Part shown: positions 7,826 to 59,535 of the stretch, in pieces
How positions within the stretch are numbered: position 1 is the first letter of the stretch
How the letters are laid out: each line of letters starts with the position of its first letter
DNA from: Streptomyces sp. AA1529
Lineage (GTDB): Bacteria; Actinomycetota; Actinomycetes; Streptomycetales; Streptomycetaceae
Reading direction: 5' to 3'
Length of the DNA stretch: 64,000 nucleotides
Assembly: GCF_000280905.1 (NCBI RefSeq)
Contig: NZ_ALAP01000078.1
Coordinates: 186,001-250,000 of the forward strand
Translations under genes and position numbers: made by a program
The notes under the pieces: model-generated
The model's input: only the letters and a program-made list of their open reading frames with translations
Told to the model about the DNA's origin: nothing
The model's database searches: none

Positions 7826-8278
7826 TCACGCCGGTTCCGCGTCCGGTCCGGACGCGGAACCGCTGCGGGCGCCGGACCACTCGATCCAGCTCATCGCGAA
7901 GAACACGTCGCCCGAGATCTTCAGCCGGCCGCCGACGAAGGCGTCGGTGCCCTTCGACTCCCCCGCCGCCAGCGCCACCAGGTCCGCGAGCGTCACCCCG
8001 ATCGTGGCGTCCGCGGGGCCGTCGAGGGCGGCGGAGGTGGTGGTGCAGCTTCCGCCGCCGACGGCCACGTAACGGTGCCGGACGCCGTGCGGGGTGTCGA
8101 TCTCGTAGTGGAAGACGCCGGAGGCGAGTGCGGCGCGCCGGGGGCCGAACCGGGCGCGGAAGCACTCGAAGACCAGGTCCAGCAGCGCCTCGGTCGCCTC
8201 GGGCGGCAGGACCTCGACGGTTCCGCCGGTGCGGGCGGGATCGCGGAGCCGGTGGGGGGCCGTTTCGCGCCCGGTCAC
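7826..8278 (-). CDS. SCP2 sterol-binding-domain-like protein
   Basis: This 150-residue protein has an SCP-2-type hydrophobic-ligand-binding fold. The block VTLADLVALAAGESKGTDAFVGGRLKISGDVFFAM is diagnostic of this domain. Such proteins bind lipid-like or polyketide-like ligands, and some act in antibiotic clusters. Its GTG overlaps the stop of the ABM-dehydrogenase gene (GTGA), so the two form an operon. That operon has a candidate SARP operator upstream, which would make this the left edge of the cluster. Binding of the polyketide intermediate is inference only. Confidence 0.78.
   Translation of the reverse strand: MTGRETAPHRLRDPARTGGTVEVLPPEATEALLDLVFECFRARFGPRRAALASGVFHYEIDTPHGVRHRYVAVGGGSCTTTSAALDGPADATIGVTLADLVALAAGESKGTDAFVGGRLKISGDVFFAMSWIEWSGARSGSASGPDAEPA
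7833..7861 (+). terminator. Hairpin terminator inside the 3' end of the convergent gene
   Basis: GGTTCCGCGTCC (7833-7844) and GGACGCGGAACC (7850-7861) form a perfect 12-bp stem with a 5-base loop. It sits 15 bp after the PPOX stop but within the last codons of the SCP2 gene. Confidence 0.6.
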
Positions 8279-9552
8279 GACGCGTCCCGGGTGCCGTCGT
8301 GCGGGACGGTGTGCTCCAGCAGGACGGAGGCGTCCTTGTCCCCGTCGCCCGCCGCGTTGACGGCGGCGAAGCGTTCGCGCACCGCGTCCAGTACGGGCAG
8401 CGGCGCCCCGGCCTCCGCCGCGTCGCCCAGGGCCAGGCGCAGGTCCTTCTCCATCAGCGTCGACCGGAAGAAGGCGGGCTCGTAGGCGCCCTTGCGCATC
8501 AGGTCGGCGCGGAAGCGCAGCACCACCGAGCTGAAGCCGCTCTCCGCGACGGAGGCCAGCAACTGGTCGCGGTCCAGCCCGGCGGCGACGCCGTAGGCGA
8601 CCGCCTCGGTGAGGGAGGCCACCTGTGCGCCGAGCAGCAGGTTGAAGATCAGCTTGAGGGTGGCGGCGGTGCCGGGCTCGCCGAGGTGGACGACCTGGCT
8701 GCCGAGGGTCTCCAGGAGGTCGCCGACGCGGGCGATGTCGGCCTCGTCGCCGCTGGTGTACACGCGCAGCTTGCCCTCGCGGGCCTGGAAGGGGTTGCCG
8801 ACGACGCACGCCTCCACCCGGCGCAGTCCGAGCCCGGCCAGCCGCCGGGCGCACTCGCGGGCGTAGGCGGGGGAGACCGTCGAGGTGTCCACGACGACGG
8901 CGCCGGTTACCAGCACCGGGGCCACCTGTCCGAACAGCACGTCCTCGACGGCGGCCTCGTCGGCCAGGCTGAGCAGCACCACGGAGCGGCCCGCCGCGGC
9001 CTCCGCGGGGCTCGCGGCGACGGTGGCACCCGCCTCGGCCAACGGCACGGCCTTGGCCGCGGTGCGGTTGTGGACGGTCAGGGGATGTCCCGCGTCCAGC
9101 AGGCGGCGGGCCATGCCGCCGCCCATGTTGCCCAGTCCGATGAAGGCCGGCGGTTCGCGGTCCGCGGCGGCGGGCCCGGGGGCGGCGGTTCCTCCGGCGG
9201 CGGCAGCGGGCGTCTCGTGCCGGGCCGGCGCGGAGGCCGGCGGCAGTTCGTGGACGGTCTCGGTGACGGCCATCTCCCCGCCCCTGCGGAACGGCTGGAG
9301 CCTGCGCCGGTTCTCGACATGCGCCTCGCTCAGCTCGAACGCGCGGAAGGAGGGCTCGTCCGTCCAGTCGGTGAGGACGTGGTAGACGCTCTTGTCCTCG
9401 ACCGAACGCAGCAGCTTCTGGCCCCGGTTGGCGGGCTCGCGCGCGATGCCGGTGGCCACCTGTCGCCAGGTCTCCTCGAACTCCTGCTCCTTGCCGGGAT
9501 GGATCTCCATCCGCAGCATGACGCGGAACGGTGGCCGCGAATCAGCCTGCAT
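8275..9552 (-). CDS. Fusion of an ABM-type monooxygenase domain and a 3-hydroxyisobutyrate-dehydrogenase-like domain
   Basis: This is a 425-residue two-domain protein. Residues 1-95 form an antibiotic-biosynthesis-monooxygenase (ABM) domain that closely resembles the free-standing protein at 48136-48480: both contain FRV-LRM-I-PG-E--FE-TW and DW-DEP-FR-FE-S-AH. After an Ala/Pro-rich linker (about 100-130), the rest is an NAD(P)-dependent beta-hydroxyacid dehydrogenase. It has the nucleotide motif GLGNMGGGMARRLL, the substrate loop VVDTSTVSP and the catalytic lysine in TLKLIFNLL. The GTG/ATG choice is settled by GGAGG eight bases before the ATG. A plausible role is coupling an oxygenation or ring-forming step to reduction of a polyketide intermediate. 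No characterised protein with this architecture comes to mind. Confidence 0.88.
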   Translation of the reverse strand: MQADSRPPFRVMLRMEIHPGKEQEFEETWRQVATGIAREPANRGQKLLRSVEDKSVYHVLTDWTDEPSFRAFELSEAHVENRRRLQPFRRGGEMAVTETVHELPPASAPARHETPAAAAGGTAAPGPAAADREPPAFIGLGNMGGGMARRLLDAGHPLTVHNRTAAKAVPLAEAGATVAASPAEAAAGRSVVLLSLADEAAVEDVLFGQVAPVLVTGAVVVDTSTVSPAYARECARRLAGLGLRRVEACVVGNPFQAREGKLRVYTSGDEADIARVGDLLETLGSQVVHLGEPGTAATLKLIFNLLLGAQVASLTEAVAYGVAAGLDRDQLLASVAESGFSSVVLRFRADLMRKGAYEPAFFRSTLMEKDLRLALGDAAEAGAPLPVLDAVRERFAAVNAAGDGDKDASVLLEHTVPHDGTRDAS

Positions 9553-9601
9553 GGTGTCCGCCTCCAATGCGTGGGAACGGCCCCCACGGTCACCATCCGC
9601 G

Positions 9602-9630
9602 CTCGACATCCGATCGAGGTCCGCTCCGGC
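9602..9630 (-). promoter_or_regulatory. Candidate SARP operator (11-bp heptamer repeats) for the ABM-dehydrogenase operon
   Basis: Read on the minus strand, heptamers GCCGGAG, CCTCGAT and TGTCGAG are each separated by the same spacer CGGA, giving exact 11-bp spacing. They lie 50-78 bp before the start at 9552. Confidence 0.6.
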
Positions 9631-9728
9631 GGGGGGCCGGCGCCCGGTGCCGCCCCGGCCGGGGGACCTGCGGGCGGCGCCTCCCGCAGGAGCCCGGACG
9701 GGTGCGCGTCGGCCGCGCGGAGACGGCG

Positions 9729-9757
9729 GCTCAAGTCCTGCTCGAGCGGCGTCTGCC
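9729..9757 (+). promoter_or_regulatory. Candidate SARP operator for the membrane protein/multicopper oxidase operon
   Basis: GCTCAAG, GCTCGAG and GTCTGCC begin at 9729, 9740 and 9751, an exact 11-bp spacing. They end 40 bp before the ATG at 9797. The first two fit the recurring xxTCxAG pattern of this window. Confidence 0.65.
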
Positions 9758-9796
9758 TACGCTCGGGCCAGACCCCGACCCCGGAGAGATCACGCC

Positions 9797-10312
9797 ATGG
9801 CACACAATCCCGACGGGGGCCTCGCCGGCGCCCCGGACGCTGCTCGCGGGCCCGCCCCGGGACCGGCCCCGCCTCCCTCCCCCGCGCCCGGGCCGGACGG
9901 CTCCGCCGCCGGAGCCGCCGCGCCCCGGGTGCGCCGCTGGCCGATCGTGCTGATGCGCGCGGTGGTGACGCTCTTCCTCCTCCTGCTGCTGGTGCAGCCG
10001 GTGCTGGCGGGCATGTTCATCAGCGGCGACGTGGACCTGCTCGAACTGCACGAGATCAACTCCCACACCATCACCTTCACCGGCTGGGTCCTGGTCCTCG
10101 CGGCGGTCCTGGTGTGGCGGCCCGGACGCGGGCCGCTGTGGCCGGCGGTGCTGGCGCTGCTGCTGAGCTTCGTCATCTCGATGCAGGCGGGCTGGGGGTA
10201 CGCGCGGGAGCTGGAACTGCACATCCCGATGGGCGTGTTCCTCGTCTCCGCCGGTACCGCGCTCGTCCACTGGGCGTACGCGTACCGCCCGGGCCGCGGG
10301 AGGCGGGGATGA
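9797..10312 (+). CDS. Four-helix integral membrane protein next to a multicopper oxidase
   Basis: This 171-residue protein has a Pro/Ala-rich cytoplasmic N-terminus (about 1-50) and then four predicted transmembrane helices. Histidines occur in conserved-looking places (LHEINSHTITF and ELELHIPMGVF), which recalls small cytochrome-b561-like or DUF6220-type proteins that bind haem. It overlaps the multicopper oxidase start by 4 bp (ATGA), so the two are co-translated. It may act as a redox partner or anchor for that secreted oxidase; this is inference. Confidence 0.75.
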   Translation: MAHNPDGGLAGAPDAARGPAPGPAPPPSPAPGPDGSAAGAAAPRVRRWPIVLMRAVVTLFLLLLLVQPVLAGMFISGDVDLLELHEINSHTITFTGWVLVLAAVLVWRPGRGPLWPAVLALLLSFVISMQAGWGYARELELHIPMGVFLVSAGTALVHWAYAYRPGRGRRG

Positions 10313-11964
10313 GCGCGCCGCACGAGGGCAGCGGCGACGGGCCTCCCGCGCCGCGCCGCGGCCCCGGGCGGCGGCGGCTGCTGGCGCTGGCCGGCGGAGC
10401 GGGCGCCGCCGCGGCACTGGGCGGGGCGGCGGGCTGCGGGGCGCCGCGGGCCGGTGACGGGATCTCCGGCGAACTGCTGCGCAGCACCGCACGGCTGCCC
10501 GAGCCGTTCCAGGTGCCGCTGCCGGTGCCGCCGGTGGCCGAGCCGGTGCGCACCCGGGGCGGTGCCGCGGTGTACGAGGTGGAGCAGCGCGCCGTCCGGC
10601 AGGAGATCCTGCCGGGCCTCAGGACCGAGGTGTGGGGCTACGACGGGCGGTTCCCCGGCCCCACCTTCGTCGGCGAGTCGGAGCGCGAACTGCGACTGCG
10701 GGTGCGCAACGCGCTGGAGATGCCGACCTCCACCCATCTGCACGGCGGTGTGCAGCGGCCGGAGTCCGACGGGCATCCCACGGATCTGGTGCTGCCCTCC
10801 GGCTTCCCCGATCCGCGGCACCCCGAGCAGGCCGGGAAGGGCGAGTACAGCGGCTCGGAGATGGTGAAGCCCTCGGAGTGGACGGTCTCACGCGGGCACA
10901 AGGAGTACGTCTATCCGCTGAAGCAGCGGGCGACCACGCTGTGGTACCACGACCACCGGATGGACTTCAGCGCCCCGCAGGTGTGGCGCGGTCTGGCCGG
11001 GATGTTCCTGGTGCACGACGACGAGGAGAGCGGGCTGCCGCTGCCCGAGGACTCCCGGGACATCCCGCTGATGATCTGCGACCGGGCCTTCGAGGAGGAC
11101 GGCTCGTTCCGCTACCCGTCGCTCGACCCCTCGCTCGCGGGGAAGCCCGGGGTGCGCGCGCAGTACATGGAGGGGGTGACGGGCGATGTCATCCTGGTCA
11201 ACGGCGCGCCCTGGCCGGAGCTGGAGGTCAGCGCCGAGCGGTACCGCTTCCGTGTCCTCAACGCCTCCAACGCGCGCCGCTTCCGGCTCGCGCTGGATCC
11301 GGGGCCGCGGGAGGGCGCCGCGTTCGTCCAGGTCGGCAGCGACGGCGGGCTGCTGGACGCGCCGCGCGAGCACGAGGAGCTGCCGGTCTCGCCCGCCGAA
11401 CGGTTCGACGTCGTCATCGACTTCGCGGCGTTCCCGGTGGGTTCGGAGGTGCGGCTCGTCAACACGCTGGGGCAGGGCCGCACCCGCGACGTGATGCGGT
11501 TCCGGGTGACGCGGCGGGCGAAGCGGGGTGCGGGCGCTCCCCGGGTGCCGCGGCGGCTGGCGGACGTGCAGCGGCTGAAGGCCGGGCAGGCGGTCGTCGA
11601 CCGGCAGTTCGACTTCCGGCAGAAGCAGGTGCACGGCATGCGGATGTGGACCGTCAACGGAAAGCCGTACGATCCCGGGGCGCCGCTGGCCTCGCCCCGG
11701 CTGGACTCGGTGGAACGCTGGCGCTTCACCAGCGACTTCCACCATCCGGTCCATGTCCATCTGGCCCACTTCCAGGTGCTGTCGCGCAGCGGGAAGGCGC
11801 CGCTGGACTCGGACGCGGGCTGGAAGGACACGGTGGACGTGCGGCCGTTCGAAGTCGTGGACGTCCTCATCCGGTTCGCCGGTTTCCGCGGGATGTACAT
11901 GCTGCACTGTCACAACCTGGAGCACGAGGACATGGCCATGATGGCGGACTTCCGCATCGTGTGA
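10309..11964 (+). CDS. Secreted multicopper oxidase 1 (laccase/CotA/phenoxazinone-synthase-like, Tat lipoprotein)
   Basis: This 551-residue laccase-type oxidase couples one-electron oxidation of phenols to reduction of O2. All four copper-ligand regions are present: HLHGG, WYHDHR, HPVHVHL and the C-terminal HCHNLEHEDMAMM with the type-1 copper Cys, His and Met. The N-terminus has a twin-Arg stretch (RRGPGRRRLLALAGG), a hydrophobic core and a lipobox-like GAAGC. It is therefore probably exported by Tat and lipid-anchored outside the membrane. It is the first of three multicopper oxidases in the cluster. A likely role is oxidation or coupling of the polyphenol product; the substrate is inferred. 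Confidence 0.92.
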   Translation: MSAPHEGSGDGPPAPRRGPGRRRLLALAGGAGAAAALGGAAGCGAPRAGDGISGELLRSTARLPEPFQVPLPVPPVAEPVRTRGGAAVYEVEQRAVRQEILPGLRTEVWGYDGRFPGPTFVGESERELRLRVRNALEMPTSTHLHGGVQRPESDGHPTDLVLPSGFPDPRHPEQAGKGEYSGSEMVKPSEWTVSRGHKEYVYPLKQRATTLWYHDHRMDFSAPQVWRGLAGMFLVHDDEESGLPLPEDSRDIPLMICDRAFEEDGSFRYPSLDPSLAGKPGVRAQYMEGVTGDVILVNGAPWPELEVSAERYRFRVLNASNARRFRLALDPGPREGAAFVQVGSDGGLLDAPREHEELPVSPAERFDVVIDFAAFPVGSEVRLVNTLGQGRTRDVMRFRVTRRAKRGAGAPRVPRRLADVQRLKAGQAVVDRQFDFRQKQVHGMRMWTVNGKPYDPGAPLASPRLDSVERWRFTSDFHHPVHVHLAHFQVLSRSGKAPLDSDAGWKDTVDVRPFEVVDVLIRFAGFRGMYMLHCHNLEHEDMAMMADFRIV

Positions 11965-13477: not shown

Positions 13478-15321
13478 CGGGCTGGATCGACTTCGCGCGG
13501 GAGATGCGCGAGGAGGGCAGCGTCGTCCGGTCGATGGCCGCCACCCTCGCCAACCGCGGGCCGGACGACGAGTCGGTGTGGACCGACGCGGACGCCGCGC
13601 TGGGGCATCGCAGGCTCGCCGTCATCGACGTGGACGACTCCGTCCAGCCGATGACCGCCGAGCACGACGGGCGCACCCTGGCCGTGCTCGTCCACAACGG
13701 CGAGATCTACAACTACCGGGAGCTGCGTTCCCGGTTGACGGCTCTGGGCCACCGGTTCCGTACGGCCGGGGACACCGAAGTGGTGCTGCGCGCCTACCTG
13801 GAGTGGGGTCCGGAGTGCGTGGAGCGGCTGGACGGCATGTTCGCGTTCGCCGTGTGGGATCCGCGCAGCAGGCAGCTGCTGCTGGCCCGCGACCGGCTGG
13901 GGATCAAGCCGCTGTACTACGCGCGGACCGCGGACGGTCTGCTCTTCGGCTCCGAGCCCAAGGCGCTGCTGGCCCACCCGTCGCTGGAGTGCGTGGTGGA
14001 CGCGGAGGGGCTGGCCGAGCTGCTGGCCTACATCGCGACCCCGGGGCACGCCGTCTACCGGGGGATCCGGGAGCTGCCCGCCGGGCACACGGCGCTGCTC
14101 AAGCAGGGTGCCGGCGGTGCGGTGCTGACCGAGTCGCGCTACTGGTCGCTGCCCGACCGCGAACACCCCGACACGCTGGAGCGGACCGTCGAGACGGTGC
14201 GCGGGCTGCTGCAGGACGCGGTCGGCAGCCACCTGGTCTCGGACGTCCCGCTGTGCACCCTGCTGTCGGGCGGGGTGGACTCCAGCGCGCTGGCGGCGTT
14301 CGCCGCCCGCGCCGGCGGCGGGCGGCCGCGCACCTTCGCGGTGGACTTCGAAGGGCACACGGAGCGGTTCCGCAAGGACTTCTGGCACGAGGACCCGGAC
14401 GCGCCCTACGCGGCCGAGGTCGCCCGGCATGTGGGCACCGACCACGAACCGGTGGTGCTGCGCACCGCGGACCTGGCCGACCAGGTCGTCGACGCGGCGG
14501 CGCTGCGGGCCCAGGACCTGCCCCGGCCGATCCCGGACATGGACCGCTCGCTGTATCTGCTGCTGCGGGCGGTACGGCAGCGCTCCACGGTGGCGCTGAT
14601 GGGCGAGGTCGCCGACGAACTGTTCGGCGGCTACCAGTCCTTCCGCGACCCGACGCTGGTGGACACCGCGAACTTCCCCTGGGTGACGATGGGTCTGCGG
14701 GTGGCGCCGCACGGGATGAGCACCGGGCTGCTGGACCCCGGTCTGCTGCGCAAGATCGACGTGCCGGGCTACTCGGCGCAGCGCTGGGCGGAGACGGTGG
14801 CCGAGGTGCCCGCGGTGCCGGGCGAGTCGGAGACCGAGCGGGTGATGCGGCGGGTCGGGCACGCGCATCTCACCCGCTGGCTGCCGCTGCTGCTCTCCCG
14901 CGACGACCGGCTGAGCATGGCGGTCGGCCTGGAGCTGCGGGTGCCCTACTGCGACCACCGGCTGGTCGAGTACGTCTACAACATCCCCTGGTCGATGAAG
15001 ACGGCCGACGGCCGTGAGAAGAGCGTGCTGCGCTCGGCCGTCGCCGATCTGCTGCCCGACTCGGTGACCCAGCGCCGCAAGAGTCCCTTCCCGATCACCC
15101 AGGACCCGCGCTACGGGCAGGTGCTGCGGCAGCGCTTCGACGCGGTCGTCGCCGACCCCGCCAGCCCGGTGCGGCCGCTGCTGGACGGCCCCGCCTGCGC
15201 GGAACTGGCCGCCGAGGACCGGCCGATCGCGGTCGACGGGTGGGGCGAGCGCCGCAACGTCGAGATGGTCCTCCAGCTCGACGCGTGGCTGCGCCACTAC
15301 CGCGTCCGGCTGGATCTGTGA
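13465..15321 (+). CDS. Asparagine-synthase-type glutamine amidotransferase
   Basis: This 618-residue AsnB-like enzyme has an N-terminal class II glutaminase domain with Cys2 as nucleophile (MCGIAGWI, then NRGPDDES and HNGEIYNYRELR). It also has a C-terminal ATP-pyrophosphatase-type synthetase domain with the SGGVDSSALAAF loop and the DNELFGGY-like EVADELFGGYQ motif. Members of this family in aromatic polyketide clusters amidate a carboxyl group of the chain; the amide can then cyclise to a lactam or isoquinolone. That role here is inference from context, since primary asparagine synthesis is not excluded. It is full length with both active sites intact. Confidence 0.9.
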   Translation: MCGIAGWIDFAREMREEGSVVRSMAATLANRGPDDESVWTDADAALGHRRLAVIDVDDSVQPMTAEHDGRTLAVLVHNGEIYNYRELRSRLTALGHRFRTAGDTEVVLRAYLEWGPECVERLDGMFAFAVWDPRSRQLLLARDRLGIKPLYYARTADGLLFGSEPKALLAHPSLECVVDAEGLAELLAYIATPGHAVYRGIRELPAGHTALLKQGAGGAVLTESRYWSLPDREHPDTLERTVETVRGLLQDAVGSHLVSDVPLCTLLSGGVDSSALAAFAARAGGGRPRTFAVDFEGHTERFRKDFWHEDPDAPYAAEVARHVGTDHEPVVLRTADLADQVVDAAALRAQDLPRPIPDMDRSLYLLLRAVRQRSTVALMGEVADELFGGYQSFRDPTLVDTANFPWVTMGLRVAPHGMSTGLLDPGLLRKIDVPGYSAQRWAETVAEVPAVPGESETERVMRRVGHAHLTRWLPLLLSRDDRLSMAVGLELRVPYCDHRLVEYVYNIPWSMKTADGREKSVLRSAVADLLPDSVTQRRKSPFPITQDPRYGQVLRQRFDAVVADPASPVRPLLDGPACAELAAEDRPIAVDGWGERRNVEMVLQLDAWLRHYRVRLDL

Positions 15322-15347
15322 GAGCGAACGGAGAGGGGCGAGAATCG

Positions 15348-16016
15348 ATGCTGCTGAGCGATCAGCTCAAGGAGCTGGCCGCGCCGGTGCTGGAGAAGGT
15401 GCAGGCCCACCCGTTCTGGTCGGGGCTGCGGGACGGCTCCCTGCCGGGCGAGTCACTGGCGTATTTCGTGGAACAGGACACCGGGCACCTGCTGCCCGCC
15501 TACGCACGGGCGCTGGCGCGCACCGCCGCCGCCGCCGAGGCGGACGCGCACACCGCGCTGCTGGGCCGCTCGATCACCGGGACGCTGGAGGCGCGGGACC
15601 GGCTGCGCCAGAAGTACGCCGAATGGGCGGCGGGTGCGGGGCTGCCCGCGGCCGGTACGCCGCAGGCGAGTCCGGTCACCCATGCGCACTGCGCGTTCTT
15701 CAACGCCTCCAGCGCCGCCTCCTTCACCGCCGGGGTGGGGGCGCTGCTGCCGATGGTGTGGTTCAACTTCCGGGTCTCCGACGACCTGCTGGAGCGGCAC
15801 ACCGCCGGATCCCGGTACGCGGAGTGGATCGAGGCGTACCACCCCGGCGCGGGATACGGCTACGCGGTGCGGGCCTTCCTGGGGCTGGCCGACGAGCTGG
15901 GCGAGACGTCGTCGCCGGCCGGACGCGACCGGCTGGTCGAGCACTTCCGCACCGGCATCCGGCACGAGTGGGCGTTCGCCGAGGCCGCCTGGGACCGCCC
16001 CGAGTGGCCGGTGTGA
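15348..16016 (+). CDS. TenA/thiaminase-II-like protein lacking the nucleophilic Cys
   Basis: This 222-residue all-helical protein has the TenA (haem-oxygenase-like) fold. Family marks are FVEQDTGHLLPAYARAL, the YAEWIEAYH segment and the C-terminal EWAFAEAAWDRPEWPV. At the usual active-site Cys (in the LLPCYWIY-like segment) the sequence reads LLPMVWFNF, so the thiaminase nucleophile is absent. This argues against thiamine salvage. It sits 26 bp after the amidotransferase and 52 bp before the P450. A role in cofactor-free or metal-dependent tailoring is possible but unproven. Confidence 0.82.
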   Translation: MLLSDQLKELAAPVLEKVQAHPFWSGLRDGSLPGESLAYFVEQDTGHLLPAYARALARTAAAAEADAHTALLGRSITGTLEARDRLRQKYAEWAAGAGLPAAGTPQASPVTHAHCAFFNASSAASFTAGVGALLPMVWFNFRVSDDLLERHTAGSRYAEWIEAYHPGAGYGYAVRAFLGLADELGETSSPAGRDRLVEHFRTGIRHEWAFAEAAWDRPEWPV

Positions 16017-17552: not shown

Positions 17553-18740
17553 CTAGCGGATGACGTGCGGTACGAACCGCGCGTACTCGTCGGTGACGGG
17601 GCCCGCGGACTCGCGGATGCCCAGACCGGCGGCCTCCCCGTCCACCACCCAGGTGCCCAGCACCGTGCGGTTGCCGTCGAACTCCGGCAGCGGGCACAGC
17701 GCCTGGTAGCAGCACGGCTCGTCACGCACCGACGGCTCGGTGCCCGGCTCGTGCAGCGTGACGCCGGCGCCCTCGCGGCCCAGCAGCGGCTTGGCCGCCC
17801 ACCCGGTCGTGCCCGCCAGCTCCCGGGGCCCGTCCAGATAGGCGGGCAGCAGATTCGGATGGCCGGGGAAGAGCTCCCACAGGATCGCCAGCAGCGCCTT
17901 GTTGGACAGCAGCATCTTCCACGCCGGTTCGATCCACAGCGTGCTGCCGGTGCCACCGCCGTTGTCGAGGGTCTCCAGCACGTGCGGACCGAACCGGTCG
18001 GAGGCCAGCCACTCCCACGGGTAGAGCTTGAAGCAGGCCCGGACGAACTTCAGCCGCTGGTCGACGAACCGGCCCGCGAGCCGGTCCCAGCCGATCTCCT
18101 CCACCGGTATCGCGACGGTCTCCAGGCCGGCCTGCTCGGCGGTCTCCTGGAGGTAGGCCACCGTCATCAGGTCCTCGCCCAGTTCGTCCCGGGCCGAGTG
18201 GGCGAAGTGCACCGGAGCGCCCGGCGGCAGCAGCGCGGCCTGCTTGCGCCATACGCCGACCAGCCGCTCGTGCAGCGAGTTCCACTGGTCGGCGCCGGGG
18301 AAGCGGTCCTCCATCCAGAACCACTGCGGGGACGCCGCCTCCACCAGCGAGGTGGGGGTGTCCGCGTTGTACTCCAGCAGTTTCGCCGGCCCGCCGCGCC
18401 CGTCGTGGCGCAGATCGAACCTGCCGTAGAGGCTGGGCAGTTCGGCACGCCGCCGCCAGCTCTCGGACACCCGGTGCACCAGGGCCGGGTCGGTGATGCC
18501 CAGGTCCGCGAACCGGTCGGCGGCCACGATGTGCTCCGCGGCCCGCAGGCACATGGCGTGCAGCTCCTCCACGACCTCCTCGAGGTCCTCCACCTCGGGC
18601 AGCGTGAGGGCGTAGTAGGCGCTCTCGTCCCAGTAGGGGCGCAGCGAGCCGTCCGGGTAGCGGGTCAGCGGGTAGATGCAGCCCTGCTCCTCGACGGTCT
18701 GCTGCCAGCCGGGGCGCGGGGTGAGGGTGTGGCGTTCCAC
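17553..18740 (-). CDS. YgiC-like glutathionylspermidine-synthase-family ATP-grasp protein
   Basis: This 395-residue protein belongs to the C-N ligase family related to the synthetase half of glutathionylspermidine synthase. Diagnostic segments are YWDESAYYAL, KLLEYNADTPTSLVEA, WIEPAWKMLLSNKALLAILWELFPGHPNLLPAY and KPLLGREGAGV, which form the substrate and ATP site. Family members join a peptide-like carboxylate to an amine; the true substrate of YgiC proteins is unknown. The start is a GTG. It follows a YgiB-like lipoprotein-type gene by 30 bp, as in other bacteria. It has no obvious connection with the polyketide. Confidence 0.88.
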   Translation of the reverse strand: MERHTLTPRPGWQQTVEEQGCIYPLTRYPDGSLRPYWDESAYYALTLPEVEDLEEVVEELHAMCLRAAEHIVAADRFADLGITDPALVHRVSESWRRRAELPSLYGRFDLRHDGRGGPAKLLEYNADTPTSLVEAASPQWFWMEDRFPGADQWNSLHERLVGVWRKQAALLPPGAPVHFAHSARDELGEDLMTVAYLQETAEQAGLETVAIPVEEIGWDRLAGRFVDQRLKFVRACFKLYPWEWLASDRFGPHVLETLDNGGGTGSTLWIEPAWKMLLSNKALLAILWELFPGHPNLLPAYLDGPRELAGTTGWAAKPLLGREGAGVTLHEPGTEPSVRDEPCCYQALCPLPEFDGNRTVLGTWVVDGEAAGLGIRESAGPVTDEYARFVPHVIR

Positions 18741-37971: not shown

Positions 37972-40152
37972 TCAGTCGATATCCAGACGTGGCAGGATTC
38001 GTTCCACCGGACGCGGCAGCCACCAGGCGCGCGGCCCCAGCAGCCGCAGCACGGCGGGGACGAGCAGGCAGCGGATGACGACGGCGTCCATGAAGATCGC
38101 GACGGCCAGCCCGAAGCCGAACTGGCGCAGCATCCGGTCGTCGCTGAGGAAGAACGAGCCGAAGACCACGATCATGATGGCTCCGGCCGCGGTGACGACG
38201 GCGCCGGTGCGGGCCAGTCCCTCGCGGACGGCCGCGGTGTGGTCGCCGGTGCGCAGCCACTCCTCGCGCATCCGGGAGAGCAGGAAGACCTCGTAGTCCA
38301 TGGAGAGCCCGAAGACGATCGCGAAGATCATCACGGGCAGGTAGGCCTCGATGGGCCCCGCCTGCTCGCCCAGCCAGCCGTTCTGGAACACCAGGGTGAT
38401 GGCACCCAGCGCGGCGCCGATGGACAGCAGGTTGAGCAGCGCGGCCTTCAGCGGGATCAGCAGCGAGCGGAAGACGGCGGCCAGCAGCAGCATGGACAGC
38501 CCCACGACGATGGCCACGAACAGCGGCATCCGCGCTGCGACCGTGTCGGAGTAGTCGATGACCGAGGCGGTGGCGCCGCCCAGCAGATAGTCGGCGCCGG
38601 TGCGCTCCGAGAGGCCGGGCAGCACCTCCTCGCGCAGCTGGTGCACCAGGTCGGTGGTCGCCTCGTCCTGCGGCGCCGTCTTCGGATAGGCCAGCACGGT
38701 GGCCGCCTCGCCGTCCCCGGTCGGGATGACCCCGCTGCTGCCCGCGATGCCGGGGGTGTCGCGCAGTGCCGTCGTCAGGGAGCGGGCCGCCGCCCGGACG
38801 TCGCCGTCCTCCGGCGGGGCGACGGCGATCACCAGCGGGCCGTTGACGCCGGGGCCGAATCCGTCGGCGAGCCGGTCGTAGGCCTCCCGGCTGGTGCTGC
38901 CCTGCGGGTCGTTGCCCGCGTCGGCGAAGCCGAGCCGCATGCCGAGCATCGGCGCGGCCAGCGCGCCGAGCGCGACCACGGCCAGCACCAGTACCGCGAC
39001 CGGCCGGCGCTGCACGGCCGCGCCCAGCCGGCGCCAGCCCGCGCCCTCCTCGGACTTGCCCCGCTCGGCGCGCTTGGCGGCGCGGGCCCGGAACTGCCGC
39101 TCGAAGCGCTTGCCGAAGACGGCCAGCAGCGCCGGCAGCAGGGTCAGCGAGGCGAGCATCGTGACCAGGATGGTCAGCGCCACCGCCAGGGCGGCCCCGC
39201 GCAGCGCGCCCAGGCCCAGCGCGACCAGCCCCAGCAGAGCGATGATCACGGTGCAGCCGGCGACCGCGACGGTCCGCCCGGCGGTCTGCAGGGCCCGCCG
39301 CGCCGCCTCGGCGGTCTCGGCGCCGCTGGTGAGTTCGGTGCGGTACCGGGCGAAGACGAGCAGCGCGTAGTCGATGCCGACGCCGAGCCCGACGAGCATC
39401 ATCACGTACGGCGCCCAGGTGGCGACGGTGAACAGGTGGGAGACGAGCACGATGGCGCCGAGGGTGGTGCCCACGGCGAACAGCGCGGTGATGACGGGCA
39501 GTCCGGCGGCGACCACGGTGCCGAACATGAAGACGAGGATGACCAGCGCCGCGAGGATGCCCGCTCCCTCCGCCGCACCGCCGGAGTCGGCCGCCAGTTC
39601 GCCGGCCGCCTCGCCGCCGAGCTCGACGCGCACGCCGTCGCCCGCCGCGGTCCGGGCGGTGTCCAGGATGCGCCGGGTGTCGGAGACCTCCATCTCCTCG
39701 GCGGGCCGGTCGAGGGTCACGGTGGCGAAGGCCGTGGTGCCGTCCGGGGAGAGCGAGGAGGGGTCGGCGAAGGCGCCGCGCACCTCGTCGACCGCGGGCA
39801 GGCCGGCGACCTTCGCCTCCATGGCGCCGACCGCCTGGCGGACCGCCTTCCCGCGCAGCCCGTCCGGGTCGTGCAGCACGATCTCCAGCGAGCCGCCGCC
39901 CTGCCCGGAACCGTGCTCCTCCAGCAGCTCGACGGTGCGCTGGGTCTCGGTCCCGGGGATGGAGTAGTCGTCCCGGTAGCGGTCCCCGGCGCTGGAGGCC
40001 GCAGCCCATATCCCGGCGAGCACCACGGCCCACAGGACCAGCGCGGTCCATCGGTGGCGGTGCGCGAAGACGGCGGATCTGGCGAACAGTCCACCGCTGT
40101 CCGGCTGCGCTGCCGGGGCGGTGGAGTGCGTACGGGGTGGCGTGCCGGTCAC
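37972..40152 (-). CDS. MMPL-family RND transporter
   Basis: This 726-residue, 12-helix transporter of the MMPL (actinobacterial RND) family has two repeats, each with one helix, a large outside domain and five helices. The segment GLGVGIDYALLVFARYR holds the GxGxDYxxxxxxR motif, and the second repeat has the counterpart FGLSMDYEVFLLSRMREEW. Such proteins export lipids, polyketides and antibiotics. It is probably the product exporter of this cluster. The GTG start has GAGGAGGA five bases upstream. An operator of the SARP type lies 63-91 bp upstream. Confidence 0.93.
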   Translation of the reverse strand: MTGTPPRTHSTAPAAQPDSGGLFARSAVFAHRHRWTALVLWAVVLAGIWAAASSAGDRYRDDYSIPGTETQRTVELLEEHGSGQGGGSLEIVLHDPDGLRGKAVRQAVGAMEAKVAGLPAVDEVRGAFADPSSLSPDGTTAFATVTLDRPAEEMEVSDTRRILDTARTAAGDGVRVELGGEAAGELAADSGGAAEGAGILAALVILVFMFGTVVAAGLPVITALFAVGTTLGAIVLVSHLFTVATWAPYVMMLVGLGVGIDYALLVFARYRTELTSGAETAEAARRALQTAGRTVAVAGCTVIIALLGLVALGLGALRGAALAVALTILVTMLASLTLLPALLAVFGKRFERQFRARAAKRAERGKSEEGAGWRRLGAAVQRRPVAVLVLAVVALGALAAPMLGMRLGFADAGNDPQGSTSREAYDRLADGFGPGVNGPLVIAVAPPEDGDVRAAARSLTTALRDTPGIAGSSGVIPTGDGEAATVLAYPKTAPQDEATTDLVHQLREEVLPGLSERTGADYLLGGATASVIDYSDTVAARMPLFVAIVVGLSMLLLAAVFRSLLIPLKAALLNLLSIGAALGAITLVFQNGWLGEQAGPIEAYLPVMIFAIVFGLSMDYEVFLLSRMREEWLRTGDHTAAVREGLARTGAVVTAAGAIMIVVFGSFFLSDDRMLRQFGFGLAVAIFMDAVVIRCLLVPAVLRLLGPRAWWLPRPVERILPRLDID

Positions 40153-40213
40153 GGTTCCTCCTCGGGCACGCGGTCGGCTGGTCCGCGGCCGTGCGTACAG
40201 CCTGGCCAGAGCC

Positions 40214-40243
40214 GCTGGAGAACGGCTCGAGCGAGGTTGTAGC
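40214..40243 (-). promoter_or_regulatory. Candidate SARP operator for the MMPL operon
   Basis: On the minus strand GCTACAA, GCTCGAG and TCTCCAG are 11 bp apart (40215-40243), 63-91 bp before the MMPL start. Owing to the palindromic core the plus strand also reads GCTGGAG, GCTCGAG and GTTGTAG. Confidence 0.55.
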
Positions 40244-40280
40244 CGCTCCGGGACGTGCCGGGCAAGGGGCAGCGGCACGC

Positions 40281-40309
40281 GCTCCACCGCCACTCCAGGG
40301 ACAGTCGAG
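40281..40309 (+). promoter_or_regulatory. Candidate SARP operator for multicopper oxidase 2
   Basis: GCTCCAC (40281), ACTCCAG (40292) and AGTCGAG (40303) are at exact 11-bp steps. They end 44 bp before the ATG at 40353. Confidence 0.6.
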
Positions 40310-40352
40310 TCAACGGCCGGACGCTGGCCGGATGACCGGCCACCATGGTCCG

Positions 40353-41987
40353 ATGACCAGCGAACCGGACAACGAGCAGCGGCCGCGCCGGGCCGGGAAG
40401 AACAAGCGCGACGCCGACGGCCGACCGCCCTCGCGCGGCCGGCGGATCCGCCGCCGCGCCCTGCTGGCCGCGGGCGGCACGCTGGGCGCGGGAGTGGTGG
40501 TGGGCGGTGCCTATGCCGTCAACTTCGCGGTCGTCTACGGCAACCGCAAGCTGACCAACGTCGGGGAGCTGACGTTCGAGAACCCGCTGCGCGTCCCCCG
40601 GCTGCTGGAGGGGCGCAGGAGCGGCGGGGACCGGCTGTTCGAGCTCACGGCGCGGCCGGGCAGGAGCGAGCTGCTGCCCGGCAGGCAGACCCCGACCTGG
40701 GGCATCAACGGGCCGTTCCTGGCGCCCACGCTGCGGGCCCGGCGCGGGGAGACGGTGCGGGTCGCCTACGACAACCGGCTGCCGGAGGCCACCACACTGC
40801 ACTGGCACGGCATGCACCTGCCGGCGGTGATGGACGGCGGCCCGCACCAGACGGTGCAGCCGGGCGCCGTCTGGAAGCCGCACTGGAAGATCGAGCAGCC
40901 CGCCGCGACGCTCTGGTACCACCCCCATCCGCACGGAGCCACGGCCGAGCACGTGACCCGCGGCATCGCGGGCATGTTCCTGGTGGACGACGAGAAGGAC
41001 GCCGAGGAGCGCACGGGACTGCCGCGCGACTACGGGGTGGACGACATCCCCCTGATCGTGCAGGACCGCAGCTTCGCGGACGACGGCACGATGGAGCTGC
41101 GCGGGGCCTCCACCCTGGAGAGCTTCGCCGGGGTGGGCAGCGTGGGCGTGCTGGGCGACACGATCCTGGTCAACGGGGTGCACGACCCGCATCTGAAGGT
41201 GAGCACCACGCTGGTGCGGCTGCGGGTGCTGAACGCCTCCAACGCGCGCGTCTACAACTTCGGCTTCACCGACAACCGCGAGTTCCACCTGGTGGCCCAG
41301 GAGAACGGGCTGCTGGAGCGGCCGGTGCCGCTGCGCCGGCTGCAGCTCATGGCCGCCGAGCGCGCCGAGATCGTGGTGCGGATGGAGCCGGGCAGGACCG
41401 CGCTGCTGCGCAGCTTCCCGCCCGACCTGGGGCTCGGCTTCCCCACCGACCGGATGGACGGCGGCCAGGACACCTTCGACATCCTCCAGCTGCGCCCCGC
41501 GGCGAAGCTGACCAGGTCGCAGCCGCTGCCCGAGCGGCTGCGGGACGTGCCGCGCCCGGTCGAGGTGCCGAAGGGCGCGACCGTGCGCAGGTTCCGGATG
41601 AACGGGACCCAGATCAACGGCAAGGCCATGGAGATGGCGCGGGTGGACGTGGTCGCCCCCGCCGAAGCGGTGGAGGTGTGGGAGTTCACCGGTTCGAGCG
41701 ATGGGATGCACAGCATCCATGTGCACGGCACCGGCTTCAACGTCCTGGAGTACCGGGGGCGGAAGCCGCCCGCGCGACTGCGGGGGCAGAAGGACACCGT
41801 CCACGTCCCGGCCGGCGGCACGGTGCGGCTCGCGGTCCCGCTGCCGCGCTGGGTGGACACCGTGTACCCCTACATGTACCACTGCCACGTCCTCACCCAT
41901 GAGGACCAGGGCATGATGGGGCAGTTCACGATCGCCCGGCCCGGCTCCGAGTCCCAGGCCCCGCGCTGGATCTCCGACCACCACTGA
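40353..41987 (+). CDS. Multicopper oxidase 2 (bilirubin-oxidase/CotA-like, Tat-exported)
   Basis: This 544-residue laccase-type enzyme contains HWHGMHLPAVMDGG, WYHPHPHG, HSIHVHGTGFN and the type-1 copper tail YHCHVLTHEDQGMMGQF. The N-terminus (RGRRIRRRALLAAGGTLGAGVVVGGAYAV) is a twin-Arg signal, perhaps retained as an anchor. It should oxidise phenols at the outside of the membrane. It is clearly different from multicopper oxidases 1 and 3. It leads an operon with an SDR. No strong Shine-Dalgarno is visible; an ATG at 40332 is possible. Confidence 0.93.
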   Translation: MTSEPDNEQRPRRAGKNKRDADGRPPSRGRRIRRRALLAAGGTLGAGVVVGGAYAVNFAVVYGNRKLTNVGELTFENPLRVPRLLEGRRSGGDRLFELTARPGRSELLPGRQTPTWGINGPFLAPTLRARRGETVRVAYDNRLPEATTLHWHGMHLPAVMDGGPHQTVQPGAVWKPHWKIEQPAATLWYHPHPHGATAEHVTRGIAGMFLVDDEKDAEERTGLPRDYGVDDIPLIVQDRSFADDGTMELRGASTLESFAGVGSVGVLGDTILVNGVHDPHLKVSTTLVRLRVLNASNARVYNFGFTDNREFHLVAQENGLLERPVPLRRLQLMAAERAEIVVRMEPGRTALLRSFPPDLGLGFPTDRMDGGQDTFDILQLRPAAKLTRSQPLPERLRDVPRPVEVPKGATVRRFRMNGTQINGKAMEMARVDVVAPAEAVEVWEFTGSSDGMHSIHVHGTGFNVLEYRGRKPPARLRGQKDTVHVPAGGTVRLAVPLPRWVDTVYPYMYHCHVLTHEDQGMMGQFTIARPGSESQAPRWISDHH

Positions 41988-47834: not shown

Positions 47835-48146
47835 TCAGTAGGTGGCCTCTACCTCGTAGATGCCGAACGGGACCTGCAGGCGGGTGTCCCGGTAGGGGCG
47901 CAGCGGCGCCGTGTCGTCCTTGTGCCCGGCGCCCTCCTCCCAGGCCCGGAAGGCCGCCGTGTCCGACCAACGGCTGACGACGACGAGCGCGGTGGGGTCG
48001 GCGGGGGAGCGCAGCAGCTCGTTGCCGAGCATCCCGGGCACCTCCGCCATCCGCTTGCTGACCCGGTGGTACGCGGCACGCACCGCGGCCAGCTGCTCGT
48101 CGTCGTAGGCCGCCTGGTACACCAGTACACGGACCTCAGTGGGCAT
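47835..48146 (-). CDS. ABM-fold monooxygenase-like protein
   Basis: This 103-residue ferredoxin-like alpha/beta-barrel dimer subunit belongs to the antibiotic biosynthesis monooxygenase superfamily. Features are [24 protein letters not shown], then [20 protein letters not shown] and FRAWEEG. Small ABM proteins in pentangular polyphenol clusters oxidise anthrones to quinones without a cofactor or help fold the chain. It overlaps the next ABM gene by 11 bp. Confidence 0.85.
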
Positions 48147-48480
48147 CCGTGCCCGCCTTGCCCGGTACGTGGGCGACGACGGTCATCGTGTTGAAGGAGC
48201 CCTGGGAGCGGAAGGGGTGCAGCCGCTCGCGGTGGGCGAGATGCGCGTCGCTGGTCTCGAACTCCCGGAACCCGGGCTCGTCCACCCAGTCGCTGACGAT
48301 GTAGTAGGTGGACTCCTCGTCTGCCGACTTGGACAGCCACTGGCCCAGGCAGGCGGGGTGGCCGGTGACGGCCTCGGTGCTGCCCCGCCACGTCTTCTCG
48401 AAGTCGGCCTCCATACCGGGGTTGATCTGCATCCGCAGCAGCACCCGGAACTGGCCCTCGGTCCTGGCTTCCGTGCTCAT
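48136..48480 (-). CDS. ABM-fold protein, paralog of the fused domain at 8.3-9.6 kb
   Basis: This 114-residue ABM protein contains FRVLLRMQINPGMEADFEKTW, VSDWVDEPGFREFETSDAHL and RERLHPFR. The same pattern is seen in the N-terminal domain of the protein at 8275-9552, so one arose from a copy of the other. It probably has cofactor-independent oxygenase or cyclase activity on the nascent aromatic polyketide. Its start overlaps the SDR stop by one base. Confidence 0.87.
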   Translation of the reverse strand: MSTEARTEGQFRVLLRMQINPGMEADFEKTWRGSTEAVTGHPACLGQWLSKSADEESTYYIVSDWVDEPGFREFETSDAHLAHRERLHPFRSQGSFNTMTVVAHVPGKAGTDAH

Positions 48481-49232
48481 CAGGAAATCCCTCCGTCCAC
48501 GCCGATGGTGGCGCCGGTCACGTAGCGGGAGAGGTCGCTGGCCAGCCACAGGATCGCGCCGGCGACCTCGTCGGGGGTGCCGAGCCGGCCCAGCGCGGTC
48601 TTGGCGCTGTACCGCTCGATCATGAGTTTCTGCTGTTCCTCGGGCATCTTGTGCAGGTTCTCGGTCTCGATGACGCCGAGCGCGACCACGTTGAAGCGGA
48701 TGCCCTTGCTGCCGAACTCCTTGGCCAGCGAGCGGTTCAGGCCGACCAGGGCGGCCTTGGTCGCGGTGTAGTGGGAGCGCAGCGGGATGCCCGCCTCGAC
48801 GGCCTTGGAGCCGATGCTGACCACCGAAGCGCCCTCGTCCAGCAGCGGCAGCGCCGCCTGGATGACCAGGTGGACGCCGGTGAGGTTGGTGTCGACGATG
48901 CGCCGCCACTCCTCCAGCGGCAGTTCGGTGTAGGGGATGTGGCTGATGGCGCCCGCGTTGTTGACCACCAGGTCGAGGCGGCCCCAGCGGGTGCGGGCCT
49001 CGTCGATCAGCGCGCCGACGCTGTCGGGGTCGGAGACGTCGGCGCAGACCACGTGGTGGTCGCCGTCGGTCTCCTTGAGCGCGGCCTCCAGCGAGGCCAC
49101 GGCCTCGCTCTCGTTCCGGTAGCAGGTCAGCACGTCGGCGCCGGCCTCGGCCAGGGCGAGCGCGACGCCCCGCCCCACTCCCCTGGTACCTCCGGTGACC
49201 AGGGCCTTCTTGCCCTTGAGGCCGAGATCCAT
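48480..49232 (-). CDS. SDR ketoreductase (FabG-like) 1
   Basis: This 250-residue short-chain dehydrogenase has [32 protein letters not shown], and [15 protein letters not shown]. It should reduce a keto group of the carrier-bound or cyclised polyketide with NADPH. It lies in the core operon next to cyclase and ABM genes. It is related to the SDR at 56508 (same TGGTRGxGR, same YxAxKAALVG). Confidence 0.92.
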
Positions 49233-49266: not shown

Positions 49267-50249
<983 letters not shown>

Positions 50250-54027: not shown

Positions 54028-55476
54028 GTGCCCACACGCAGAAACCTGCTCCGGGCCGCCACCGCGGCCGGGGTGCTGGCGGCCGCACCGGGCGGTCCCG
54101 CCACCGGGGCGCAGGCCGCGGCCCCGCGCCTGCGCGGCCGGACGGCCGGGAAGGCCCCGTCGGCCGGGGCGCCGTTCACCGTGCCGCTGGAAGTGCAGCG
54201 GCCCATCCGGCCGTTGCGGCTGGCGGGCCACGACTTCTACCGGCTCACGACCCGGGAGGCGGACGTCGGTCTGCTGCCGGGCACCGCGACCCGGATCCGC
54301 TCCTTCAACGGCCGGATCAGCCCGCTGATCATGGCCGAACGGGGCAGGCCCGTGCTCGTCGAGCAGGTCAACCGGATGGACGTGCCCTTCTCGATGCACC
54401 TGCACGGCGGGCACACCCCGCAGCGCCACGACGGGCACCCCATGTACCAGCTCGAACCCGGTGAGCGGCGGATCTTCCGCTACCCGAACGAGCAGGACGC
54501 GGCGACGCTGTGGCTGCACGACCACTCGCACGAGCAGCACGCGGAGAACATCTACCGCGGGCTGGCGGCGACCTACCTGCTCACCGACGAGTTCGAGCGG
54601 CGCCTCCCGCTGCCCAAGGGGCGCTACGACGTGGCGCTGCAGCTGCGCGACGCGCAGTTCGCGGACGACGGTGCGCTGGTGTGGGATCTGCACGGCTTCC
54701 GGGAACGGCACACGGTGCTGGTCAACGGGCGGCCCCGGCCCTACTTCGAGGTGGCGGCACGCAAGTACCGGCTGCGGCTGGTCAACACCTCCAACGAGCG
54801 GGTCTTCAGCCTCCGGCTGGGCGAGGACGAGGAGTTCACCCACATCGGGACCGACGGGGGGCTGCTCCCCGCGCCCGTCCCCACCCGGATGCTGCAGCTG
54901 TGGCCCGGCGAACGGCAGGAGATCGTCGTCGACTTCGCCCGCTACGGGGTGGGCCGCCGGCTGGTGCTCGGCAACGCCCACCCCTACGAGGGCGAGGCGC
55001 CGGAGGTGATGCGGTTCGACGTGGTCCGCCGGGCCGGCGACCCCAGCGAGGTGCCCGAGACGCTGCGGCCGGTACCGGACCTGGGGACCTCCGCCGTCGA
55101 GCGGGAGTTCGTCATGGCCTTCGATCCGACGACCGGCCAACACCTGATCAACGGCAAGCCGTTCGACATGCACCGGGTGGACATCCGGCCCCGGCTGGGT
55201 GTCGCCGAGACCTGGAAGATCGTCAACGGCGACGGCGAACTGGGCATTCCGCACTCGATGCATCCCCACCTGGACGGGTTCCGGATCCTGGACCGGAACG
55301 GGAAGCCGCCCGCGGCCGGCGAGGCCGGACTGAAGGACGTGGTCGCGGTGCCCGCGGGCGAGTCGGTGCGGATCCAGGTGCGCTTCACCGAGCACACGGG
55401 GCTGTACATGTACCACTGCCACATGCTCAGCCACGCGCAGATGGGCATGATGGGCCAGATGGAGATCGTCCGCTGA
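54028..55476 (+). CDS. Multicopper oxidase 3 (Tat-secreted)
   Basis: This 482-residue laccase-family enzyme has a Tat signal (TRRNLLRAATAAGVLAAAPGG...AAAP). It contains HLHGGHTPQRHDGHP, LWLHDHSHEQH, HSMHPHLDGF and YHCHMLSHAQMGMMGQM, so all four copper regions are present. The C-terminal block has Ala-Gln in place of the usual Glu-Asp after the last His. It should oxidise the polyphenol outside the cell membrane. The GTG start follows GGGAGGA by 7 bases. Hairpin after the stop. Confidence 0.93.
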   Translation: MPTRRNLLRAATAAGVLAAAPGGPATGAQAAAPRLRGRTAGKAPSAGAPFTVPLEVQRPIRPLRLAGHDFYRLTTREADVGLLPGTATRIRSFNGRISPLIMAERGRPVLVEQVNRMDVPFSMHLHGGHTPQRHDGHPMYQLEPGERRIFRYPNEQDAATLWLHDHSHEQHAENIYRGLAATYLLTDEFERRLPLPKGRYDVALQLRDAQFADDGALVWDLHGFRERHTVLVNGRPRPYFEVAARKYRLRLVNTSNERVFSLRLGEDEEFTHIGTDGGLLPAPVPTRMLQLWPGERQEIVVDFARYGVGRRLVLGNAHPYEGEAPEVMRFDVVRRAGDPSEVPETLRPVPDLGTSAVEREFVMAFDPTTGQHLINGKPFDMHRVDIRPRLGVAETWKIVNGDGELGIPHSMHPHLDGFRILDRNGKPPAAGEAGLKDVVAVPAGESVRIQVRFTEHTGLYMYHCHMLSHAQMGMMGQMEIVR

Positions 55477-58057: not shown

Positions 58058-59311
58058 TCAGCGCAGCGGGCCGGTGGCCACCGTGTTCCGCAGCGCCGCC
58101 TCCTGCGAGAGCAGCAGCGGCCTGCCGACCATCCGGCCCGCCCGGCGGACACCGCTGGCGTGCGCGCCGTATCCGCCGCAGGGCAGATTGCCGTCCTCGG
58201 TGTCGAAAGGGGTGGCGTCGCGCAGCACGACGGCCGTGCCCAGCGTCCGCCCGGTCAGCCGCGGCTCGCCGAGGACCGCCGCGTACATCCCGCGCTCCAG
58301 CTCCAGGGGGTGCCGGGCCCAGCAGCGCAGCATCTCCGGGTCCTCGTAGGGGACGACGCAGAACAGCGGCCCGGAGAGGGCGGGCGGATGGAAGCCGGGG
58401 TCCTCGTCGAAGACCAGCAGGGAGGGCTCGACCTGCATCCGCTCCGGGTCCGCCCCGCCCCCGGCCACCACCCGGTCGGCGTGCTCGGTCAGGAAGCGGG
58501 CCGCGCCCTCCACGGCCTCGCCGTAGGTGAGGGCGGTGAGCACGGCGTCGGGCCAGCTGCGGGCGCCCACCGTCAGCACGGACAGTTCGGCACGCAACCG
58601 CTCGACCAGCGCGTCCAGCCGCAGCCGGTGGACGAACAGCACGTCGGGGCAGAGCCGGTGCTGACCGGAGTTGTAGAGCCGGGCGCGCAGCACCGCCCGG
58701 CAGGCGGCGTCCGGTTCGGCCCGGGGGCCGACGACCAGCGGATTGGGCGCGGGCCCGGACAGCAGGAAGAGCGGGCCGTCGCCGATCTCGGTCATCAGCT
58801 TGCCGGCCGCCGTGGCGGAGCCGGTGAAGACGACGGCGTCGGACTCCGCGCAGACCGGCGTGAAGTCGTGCTGCGCGGCGTCGGTGAAGCGGATCCGGGC
58901 GGCCAGCGCGGGGTCGAGGCCGCGGCTGACGGTGCGGTGCACCTCCAGGGCCGTCTCCCGGATCCGGGGCGTGGGCCGGACGACGACCTCGTCGCAGTAG
59001 AGCGCGGGCACCAGGCAGTGGCGGACGTAGGAGTAGAGCGCGGTGTCCTGCGGAAGCACGACCGAGACCCGGGCCAGCTGCGGCACTCCGGTACGGGCCA
59101 GCTCCCACGGCGCCCCGGCCACCGCACGCAGCGAGCGCAGCAGTTCGTCGCGGGCACTGGCGCAGGTGGCGAGCCGGGTCAGGGCGGCCAGCAGCTCGGC
59201 GCGGCCGTCCAGCAGCGCGGCCGCCGCGCCGGTGGCCCTCTCGTGCGCCGCCTCGAGATCGGGCCACGGGCGGGTGACGGATTCCAGCACGGGCATGGAG
59301 GGCTGGGTCAT
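58058..59311 (-). CDS. Aldehyde-dehydrogenase-like protein with altered active site
   Basis: This 417-residue protein keeps the aldehyde dehydrogenase fold: VSVVLPQDTALYSY, FTGSATAAGKLM (nucleotide loop) and LYNSGQHRLCPDVLFVH. In normal enzymes the catalytic Cys lies two residues after the Gln (GQxC); here that place is Arg and the Cys comes two residues later. The general-base Glu of LELGG is replaced (FLLSGPAPNP). It therefore either uses shifted residues, acts as an acyl-transferring reductase, or is catalytically silent. It is divergent from the gene at 59536. Confidence 0.75.
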   Translation of the reverse strand: MTQPSMPVLESVTRPWPDLEAAHERATGAAAALLDGRAELLAALTRLATCASARDELLRSLRAVAGAPWELARTGVPQLARVSVVLPQDTALYSYVRHCLVPALYCDEVVVRPTPRIRETALEVHRTVSRGLDPALAARIRFTDAAQHDFTPVCAESDAVVFTGSATAAGKLMTEIGDGPLFLLSGPAPNPLVVGPRAEPDAACRAVLRARLYNSGQHRLCPDVLFVHRLRLDALVERLRAELSVLTVGARSWPDAVLTALTYGEAVEGAARFLTEHADRVVAGGGADPERMQVEPSLLVFDEDPGFHPPALSGPLFCVVPYEDPEMLRCWARHPLELERGMYAAVLGEPRLTGRTLGTAVVLRDATPFDTEDGNLPCGGYGAHASGVRRAGRMVGRPLLLSQEAALRNTVATGPLR

Positions 59312-59343
59312 GGAGGACTCCTCGGGCACGGGCGGGTCCGCTC

Positions 59344-59372
59344 CCACCGGCTGCTTCAACCGGCGCTCGACC
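59344..59372 (-). promoter_or_regulatory. Candidate SARP operator for the aldehyde-dehydrogenase-like gene
   Basis: Minus-strand GGTCGAG, GGTTGAA and CCGGTGG at 11-bp steps, 33-61 bp before the ATG at 59311. A single good heptamer (TGTCGAG, 59484) sits on the other side of the 224-bp divergent region. Confidence 0.45.
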
Positions 59373-59535
59373 CCGCCGGGTTACCTTTCCCTGCGGCTCA
59401 CCGCCGCATTTCCGAGGAATCACCGATTTCGTGTATGTCAGCTCTGTGACGGTGATTTCAGCGTAGGGGGGACGGAGGCGGGGTGTCGAGAGGGCCGCCT
59501 CGGACCGGGCGGCCGGACCAGGAGGGGACCCGTCC

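Follow-up and report, generated by a model that had tools for sequence, protein, structure and literature searches.

A conserved fusion of an ABM domain with an NADP-dependent dehydrogenase in a xantholipin/lanthomicin-like type II polyketide cluster of Streptomyces sp. AA1529

In the 64,000-nucleotide stretch of Streptomyces sp. AA1529 DNA analyzed here (the window), a single gene on the minus strand (8275..9552) encodes a 425-aa protein composed of an ABM domain, a linker, and an NADP-dependent dehydrogenase (HAD), as supported by the single open frame, Pfam matches, and the occurrence of the same gene in five further genomes. The gene lies in a type II PKS cluster of the pentangular kind that resembles those for xantholipin and lanthomicin. 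Judged from sequence, it unites two known pathway genes in a conserved fusion and is a lead to a step to which no role has been assigned. On balance, its product is probably bifunctional and takes part in tailoring in a pentangular-polyphenol (xantholipin/lanthomicin-type) pathway, the gene being derived from two pre-existing genes of the cluster. The fusion ties a third ABM gene to the xantholipin-type dehydrogenase that has no assigned role, and the combination in one gene makes the step testable.

The fused open reading frame extends from an ATG at 9552 to 8275 with no internal stop codons or frameshifts, and a GGAGG sequence is located approximately 8 bases 5' of this ATG; an upstream in-frame ATG at 9609 was rejected as the start, being without a ribosome-binding site. 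Pfam analysis, performed on the 444-aa ORF (subtraction of 19 gives the numbering of the 425-aa protein), identified ABM (PF03992) with 50.6 bits against a gathering cut-off of 23.1, as well as NAD_binding_2 (PF03446; 126.2 bits) and NAD_binding_11 (PF14833; 75.9 bits), both above their cut-offs. The GC content by codon position is coding-like in the ABM and HAD domains (0.92 and 0.96, respectively, in the third position), and the linker is GC-rich at all three positions. The AlphaFold model comprises two confident domains with a disordered stretch (103–131) between them. The ABM domain (residues 1-102; 9247..9552, minus strand), which belongs to the ABM3 lineage, is modeled with pLDDT values of 84-94 for residues 11-90, the Ala/Pro/Gly-rich linker (residues 103-131; 9160..9246, minus strand) with values below 50, and the HAD domain (residues 132-425; 8278..9159, minus strand) follows. 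The linker, which the preliminary description had termed an Ala/Pro linker, is indeed a low-complexity, Ala/Pro-rich stretch; it varies in length in frame between species, with differences that are multiples of three among four aligned fused genes. In each of the five fused genes scanned, the stretch from residue 104 to the Rossmann motif is devoid of start codons, and production of a separate HAD from an internal start within the linker proper was rejected on this basis; the nearest candidate internal start in the window gene is Met94, with GGAG directly abutting. A 1278-aa open frame (8128-11964, plus strand) runs antisense across the fusion and is attributable to the high GC content, only its 3' part (a multicopper oxidase) being gene-like.

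The same fused ORF was identified in S. qinglanensis (L010), S. oryzae (L009), Streptomyces sp. MUM 178J (L012), and two further Streptomyces genomes (G130 and G139). Genome samples of 99-140 were searched, and six fused genomes is a lower bound because the contig scan was seeded with short peptides. One intact ORF and the full-length architecture in five more genomes confirm the fusion proposed in the preliminary description. In comparisons of the window gene with three relatives, dN/dS amounted to 0-0.48 for the ABM domain and 0.18-0.36 for the HAD domain, values which indicate purifying selection on both domains; the linker exceeded the domains in two of the three comparisons. Across the six genomes, the HAD domains of the fused genes show identities to the window HAD down to ~77%.

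Pentangular clusters are recognized by a ketoreductase gene followed by two adjacent ABM genes, accompanied by a minimal PKS and cyclases (PMC4383371). The window contains this arrangement, with the ketoreductase (48480..49232, minus strand; SDR/FabG matches, order as in Table 1 of PMC9127795), ABM1 in the PdmH/LtmG1 position (48136..48480, minus strand), ABM2 in the PdmI/LtmG2 position (47835..48146, minus strand), a KS at 51551, and cyclases at 49725 and 57538. The gene order at ~44–50 kb parallels lanthomicin ltmD3–E–F2–G1–G2–H1 (PMC9127795), and the carboxylase at 46 kb was assigned from the ORF reading and this synteny. The cluster also carries carboxylase genes, an asparagine-synthase-like amidotransferase, a P450, methyltransferases, a halogenase, an F420-type oxidoreductase, and flavin monooxygenases that are most closely related, among PDB entries, to GrhO5 and RubL. 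Directly downstream of the fusion, an SCP2-domain gene (7826..8278, minus strand; PF02036, 45.5 bits) starts within the fusion stop codon through a GTGA overlap. An SCP2 gene is likewise present downstream in L009, L012, and L125 and near the HAD gene in L089, and in S. qinglanensis it is reduced to a short 5' remnant (L010 11300-11400).

Several other genes of the window deserve mention. Three multicopper oxidase genes (10318-11964, 40137-41987, and 54028-55476), which look unusual for a type II PKS cluster, possibly encode phenol-coupling or oxidation enzymes. A GSP_synth (glutathionylspermidine-synthase-like) ligase gene (17553-18740, minus strand) lies beside P450 and flavin monooxygenase genes, and a TENA/THI-4/PQQC-family protein, possibly an oxygenase of the heme-oxygenase-like fold, is encoded between the asparagine-synthase-like and P450 genes (15240-16016, plus strand). 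Beside the PKS genes, an aldehyde-dehydrogenase-family gene is divergent from a DUF6002 gene (58058-61008).

The preliminary description had recognized a complete dehydrogenase with a dinucleotide-binding motif and a catalytic Lys, and all of these elements were found. Along with PF03446 and PF14833, the HAD domain, whose nearest solved relatives by sequence are 3pef and 3pdu, contains the GxGxxG-type motif GLGNMGG (residues 139-145; 9118..9138) and the catalytic pair Lys300 and Asn304 (8641..8655), both, like the motifs below, located by alignment on the minus strand; these are the features of the beta-hydroxyacid dehydrogenase superfamily. The best Foldseek matches of the fused-protein model were all HAD-family proteins. 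After strand beta2, the NADP-type sequence NRT (residues 162-164; 9061..9069) is conserved in all pathway HADs shown, whereas most of the other HADs compared have D-L at this position. The window HAD and its near relatives retain GLGNMGG, NRT, Lys, and Asn, and the catalytic Lys and Asn occur throughout the pathway HADs shown and in nearly all other HADs compared. The substrate-binding motif D-A-P-V-S-G-G is replaced by EACVVGN (residues 247-253; 8794..8814): the 17 pathway HADs shown all have GN, versus SGG in 74 of the 76 ordinary HADs compared, so that the window HAD is without the carboxylate-binding SGG of dehydrogenases acting on hydroxyacids. A hydroxyacid substrate is therefore unlikely; an ordinary beta-hydroxyacid was rejected as substrate on this motif evidence, and the name beta-hydroxyacid dehydrogenase, given earlier, holds for the superfamily and is probably wrong for the substrate. 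The absence of SGG speaks for a substrate that lacks the usual carboxylate, as a polycyclic ketone would. In imine reductases the catalytic Lys is replaced, and such an identity was rejected given the presence of Lys300. A second, paralogous HAD with GN instead of SGG is encoded on another contig of this genome (L002; G000:C65:19273-20142).

The fused ABM domain is 47% identical over 92 aa to the free ABM protein at 48136-48480 (E 3e-33), in agreement with the paralogy noted earlier, and just 32% identical over 62 aa to the ABM protein at 47835. In the tree, it clusters with the free ABM3 proteins, apart from ABM1 of the PdmH position (89/99; bootstrap not fully settled). The ABM3 domain shares with ABM1 a long conserved run of residues, Trp included. 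The catalytic residues of ActVA-Orf6-type ABM proteins are an Asn and a Trp (N62 and W66 in ActVA-Orf6); the ActVA-Orf6 sequence used for comparison is matched over its full length by PDB 1lq9. In the fused domain the Trp is kept as Trp63 and the Asn is replaced by Val, so that it lacks the Asn–Trp pair of ABM quinone-forming monooxygenases (ActVA-Orf6/SnoaB type), and its oxygenase activity is uncertain because of this substitution. ABM proteins of this type can serve as cyclization partners or fidelity factors (PMC6689052), ForS behaving as a fidelity factor, and ring formation depends on PdmH, the counterpart of ABM1 (PMC4383371); oxygenation, cyclization, and a non-catalytic role of the ABM domain are thus all possible. 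Given the missing Asn and the cyclization or fidelity functions of other ABM proteins, we do not consider the oxygen insertion suggested in the preliminary description to be established.

Unfused counterparts of both parts occur in related clusters. In Streptacidiphilus (L014 and L016), ABM and HAD are adjoining genes with a 4-bp GTGA overlap, and in other Streptomyces and in Kitasatospora, ABM3 and HAD are separate genes. At seven unfused loci the ketoreductase gene is followed by ABM1, ABM2, and HAD in a row; ABM3 lies just past a flavin (FAD) monooxygenase gene in four of the seven (L011, L013, L126, and L127) and ~12 kb further on in L015, and at L130 and L131 HAD likewise follows ABM2. 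HAD and ABM3 are non-adjacent in many unfused clusters, and ABM3 was not detected in the HAD-bearing clusters L089, G061, G018, and G075, nor in the set of more distant HAD-bearing clusters L089, L093, L095, and L096; ABM3 and HAD are therefore not obligate partners, and their pairing is not universal. These arrangements indicate that both parts of the fusion are pre-existing, ordinary genes of related clusters, with nothing new in either individually. In the HAD tree the fused HADs form one clade (96/87), which supports a single fusion event as the simplest history.

Natural fusions point to proteins acting together, and the fusion here and in five further genomes suggests that ABM and HAD may act in one step. 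The sequences are best read as a Rosetta-stone fusion that unites two tailoring functions, which are probably consecutive steps; we infer their coupling from the fusion and from gene adjacency. The ABM domain, of an ActVA-Orf6/PdmH-like fold, would bind the polycyclic intermediate and oxygenate, cyclize, or hold it; HAD would then employ NADP(H), together with Lys300 and Asn304, to reduce (or oxidize) a carbonyl (or alcohol) of this non-acidic polyketide, and the flexible linker would enforce 1:1 stoichiometry and proximity. These steps may lie near that of the flavin monooxygenase encoded between HAD and ABM3 in several unfused clusters. One form of this proposal, which we put forward tentatively, is a channeling bifunctional enzyme whose PdmH-like ABM domain would oxygenate or cyclize a pentangular intermediate and whose HAD, from a new subfamily that does not reduce acids, would immediately reduce it with NADPH; if true, it would give a role to two xanthone-pathway genes that have so far been without one.

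Less probable, with perhaps one chance in a few, is a non-catalytic ABM domain, with HAD as the sole enzyme; the ABM domain would then be a chaperone or a docking element that brings the dehydrogenase into the PKS/cyclase complex or improves fidelity. Deletion data place ForS, itself an ABM protein, in such a role (PMC6689052), and the missing ActVA-Orf6 Asn is consistent with it; however, ABM3 is under purifying selection with its Trp-containing run common to ABM1, and the ABM1 counterpart PdmH is required for ring formation (PMC4383371). It is rather improbable that the fusion is neutral, i.e., that a lost stop codon merged the frames of two co-translated genes whose activities are uncoupled and that the product was kept by descent. 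Such a history would fit a single origin, the fast-evolving linker, and the 4-bp overlap in Streptacidiphilus, since a pair of this kind needs just a small indel to become fused, but the fusion has been retained in six genomes over the HAD divergence given above, and a linker without a start codon in the fused genes scanned means that separate expression was apparently not kept. An assembly artefact, the possibility that the preliminary description itself had raised, or an annotation error has virtually no likelihood, given that the identical fused frame, free of stops and frameshifts, recurs in separately sequenced genomes, six in total.

Returning to the bifunctional tailoring protein, its parts can be set beside several known systems. 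HAD shares with 3pef, GLYR1, and HIBADH the fold, the Rossmann motif, and the catalytic Lys and Asn, and differs from them in having GN for SGG and in its polyketide cluster context. The "dehydrogenases" LtmK, XanS1, and Arx13 (lanthomicin, xantholipin, and arixanthomycin, respectively) come from the same kind of cluster, are of similar size (292 aa), and adjoin a CurD-like gene, as does HAD in L089, L093, L094, and L096; unlike the window protein, they stand alone. Judged from size and neighbors, not from sequence, HAD is probably their equivalent. The XanS1 homolog has no assigned role in the MBL-AB01 paper, and in the literature searched for HADs in type II PKS clusters, only LtmK/XanS1 entries without an assigned role were found. 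PdmH, LtmG1, and XanO7 are ABM family proteins, and the fused domain, which shares 47% identity with the protein occupying this position in the window cluster, differs from them in belonging to the separate third lineage, ABM3. In agreement with the preliminary description, to which no characterized enzyme of this architecture was known, neither the PDB search nor the papers searched yielded an ABM-HAD fusion; in aromatic polyketide biosynthesis, ABM fusions and fusions of oxygenases with reductases both have precedents. PgaM, UrdM, and LugOII are likewise single proteins of aromatic polyketide (angucycline) tailoring in which an oxygenase-type domain is joined to a reductase, but the two are a flavoprotein monooxygenase and an SDR, with neither ABM nor HAD. 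The authors of the ForS study note that an ABM domain may be attached to either end of PKS cyclases (PMC6689052); in ABM-cyclase fusions of type II PKS clusters (including 9lmn), an N-terminal ABM is also joined to another domain, whereas the partner is of the cyclase type and not a dehydrogenase. The fusion described here extends the range of ABM fusions in aromatic polyketide clusters by one domain combination and marks out a HAD subfamily whose substrate motif is altered.
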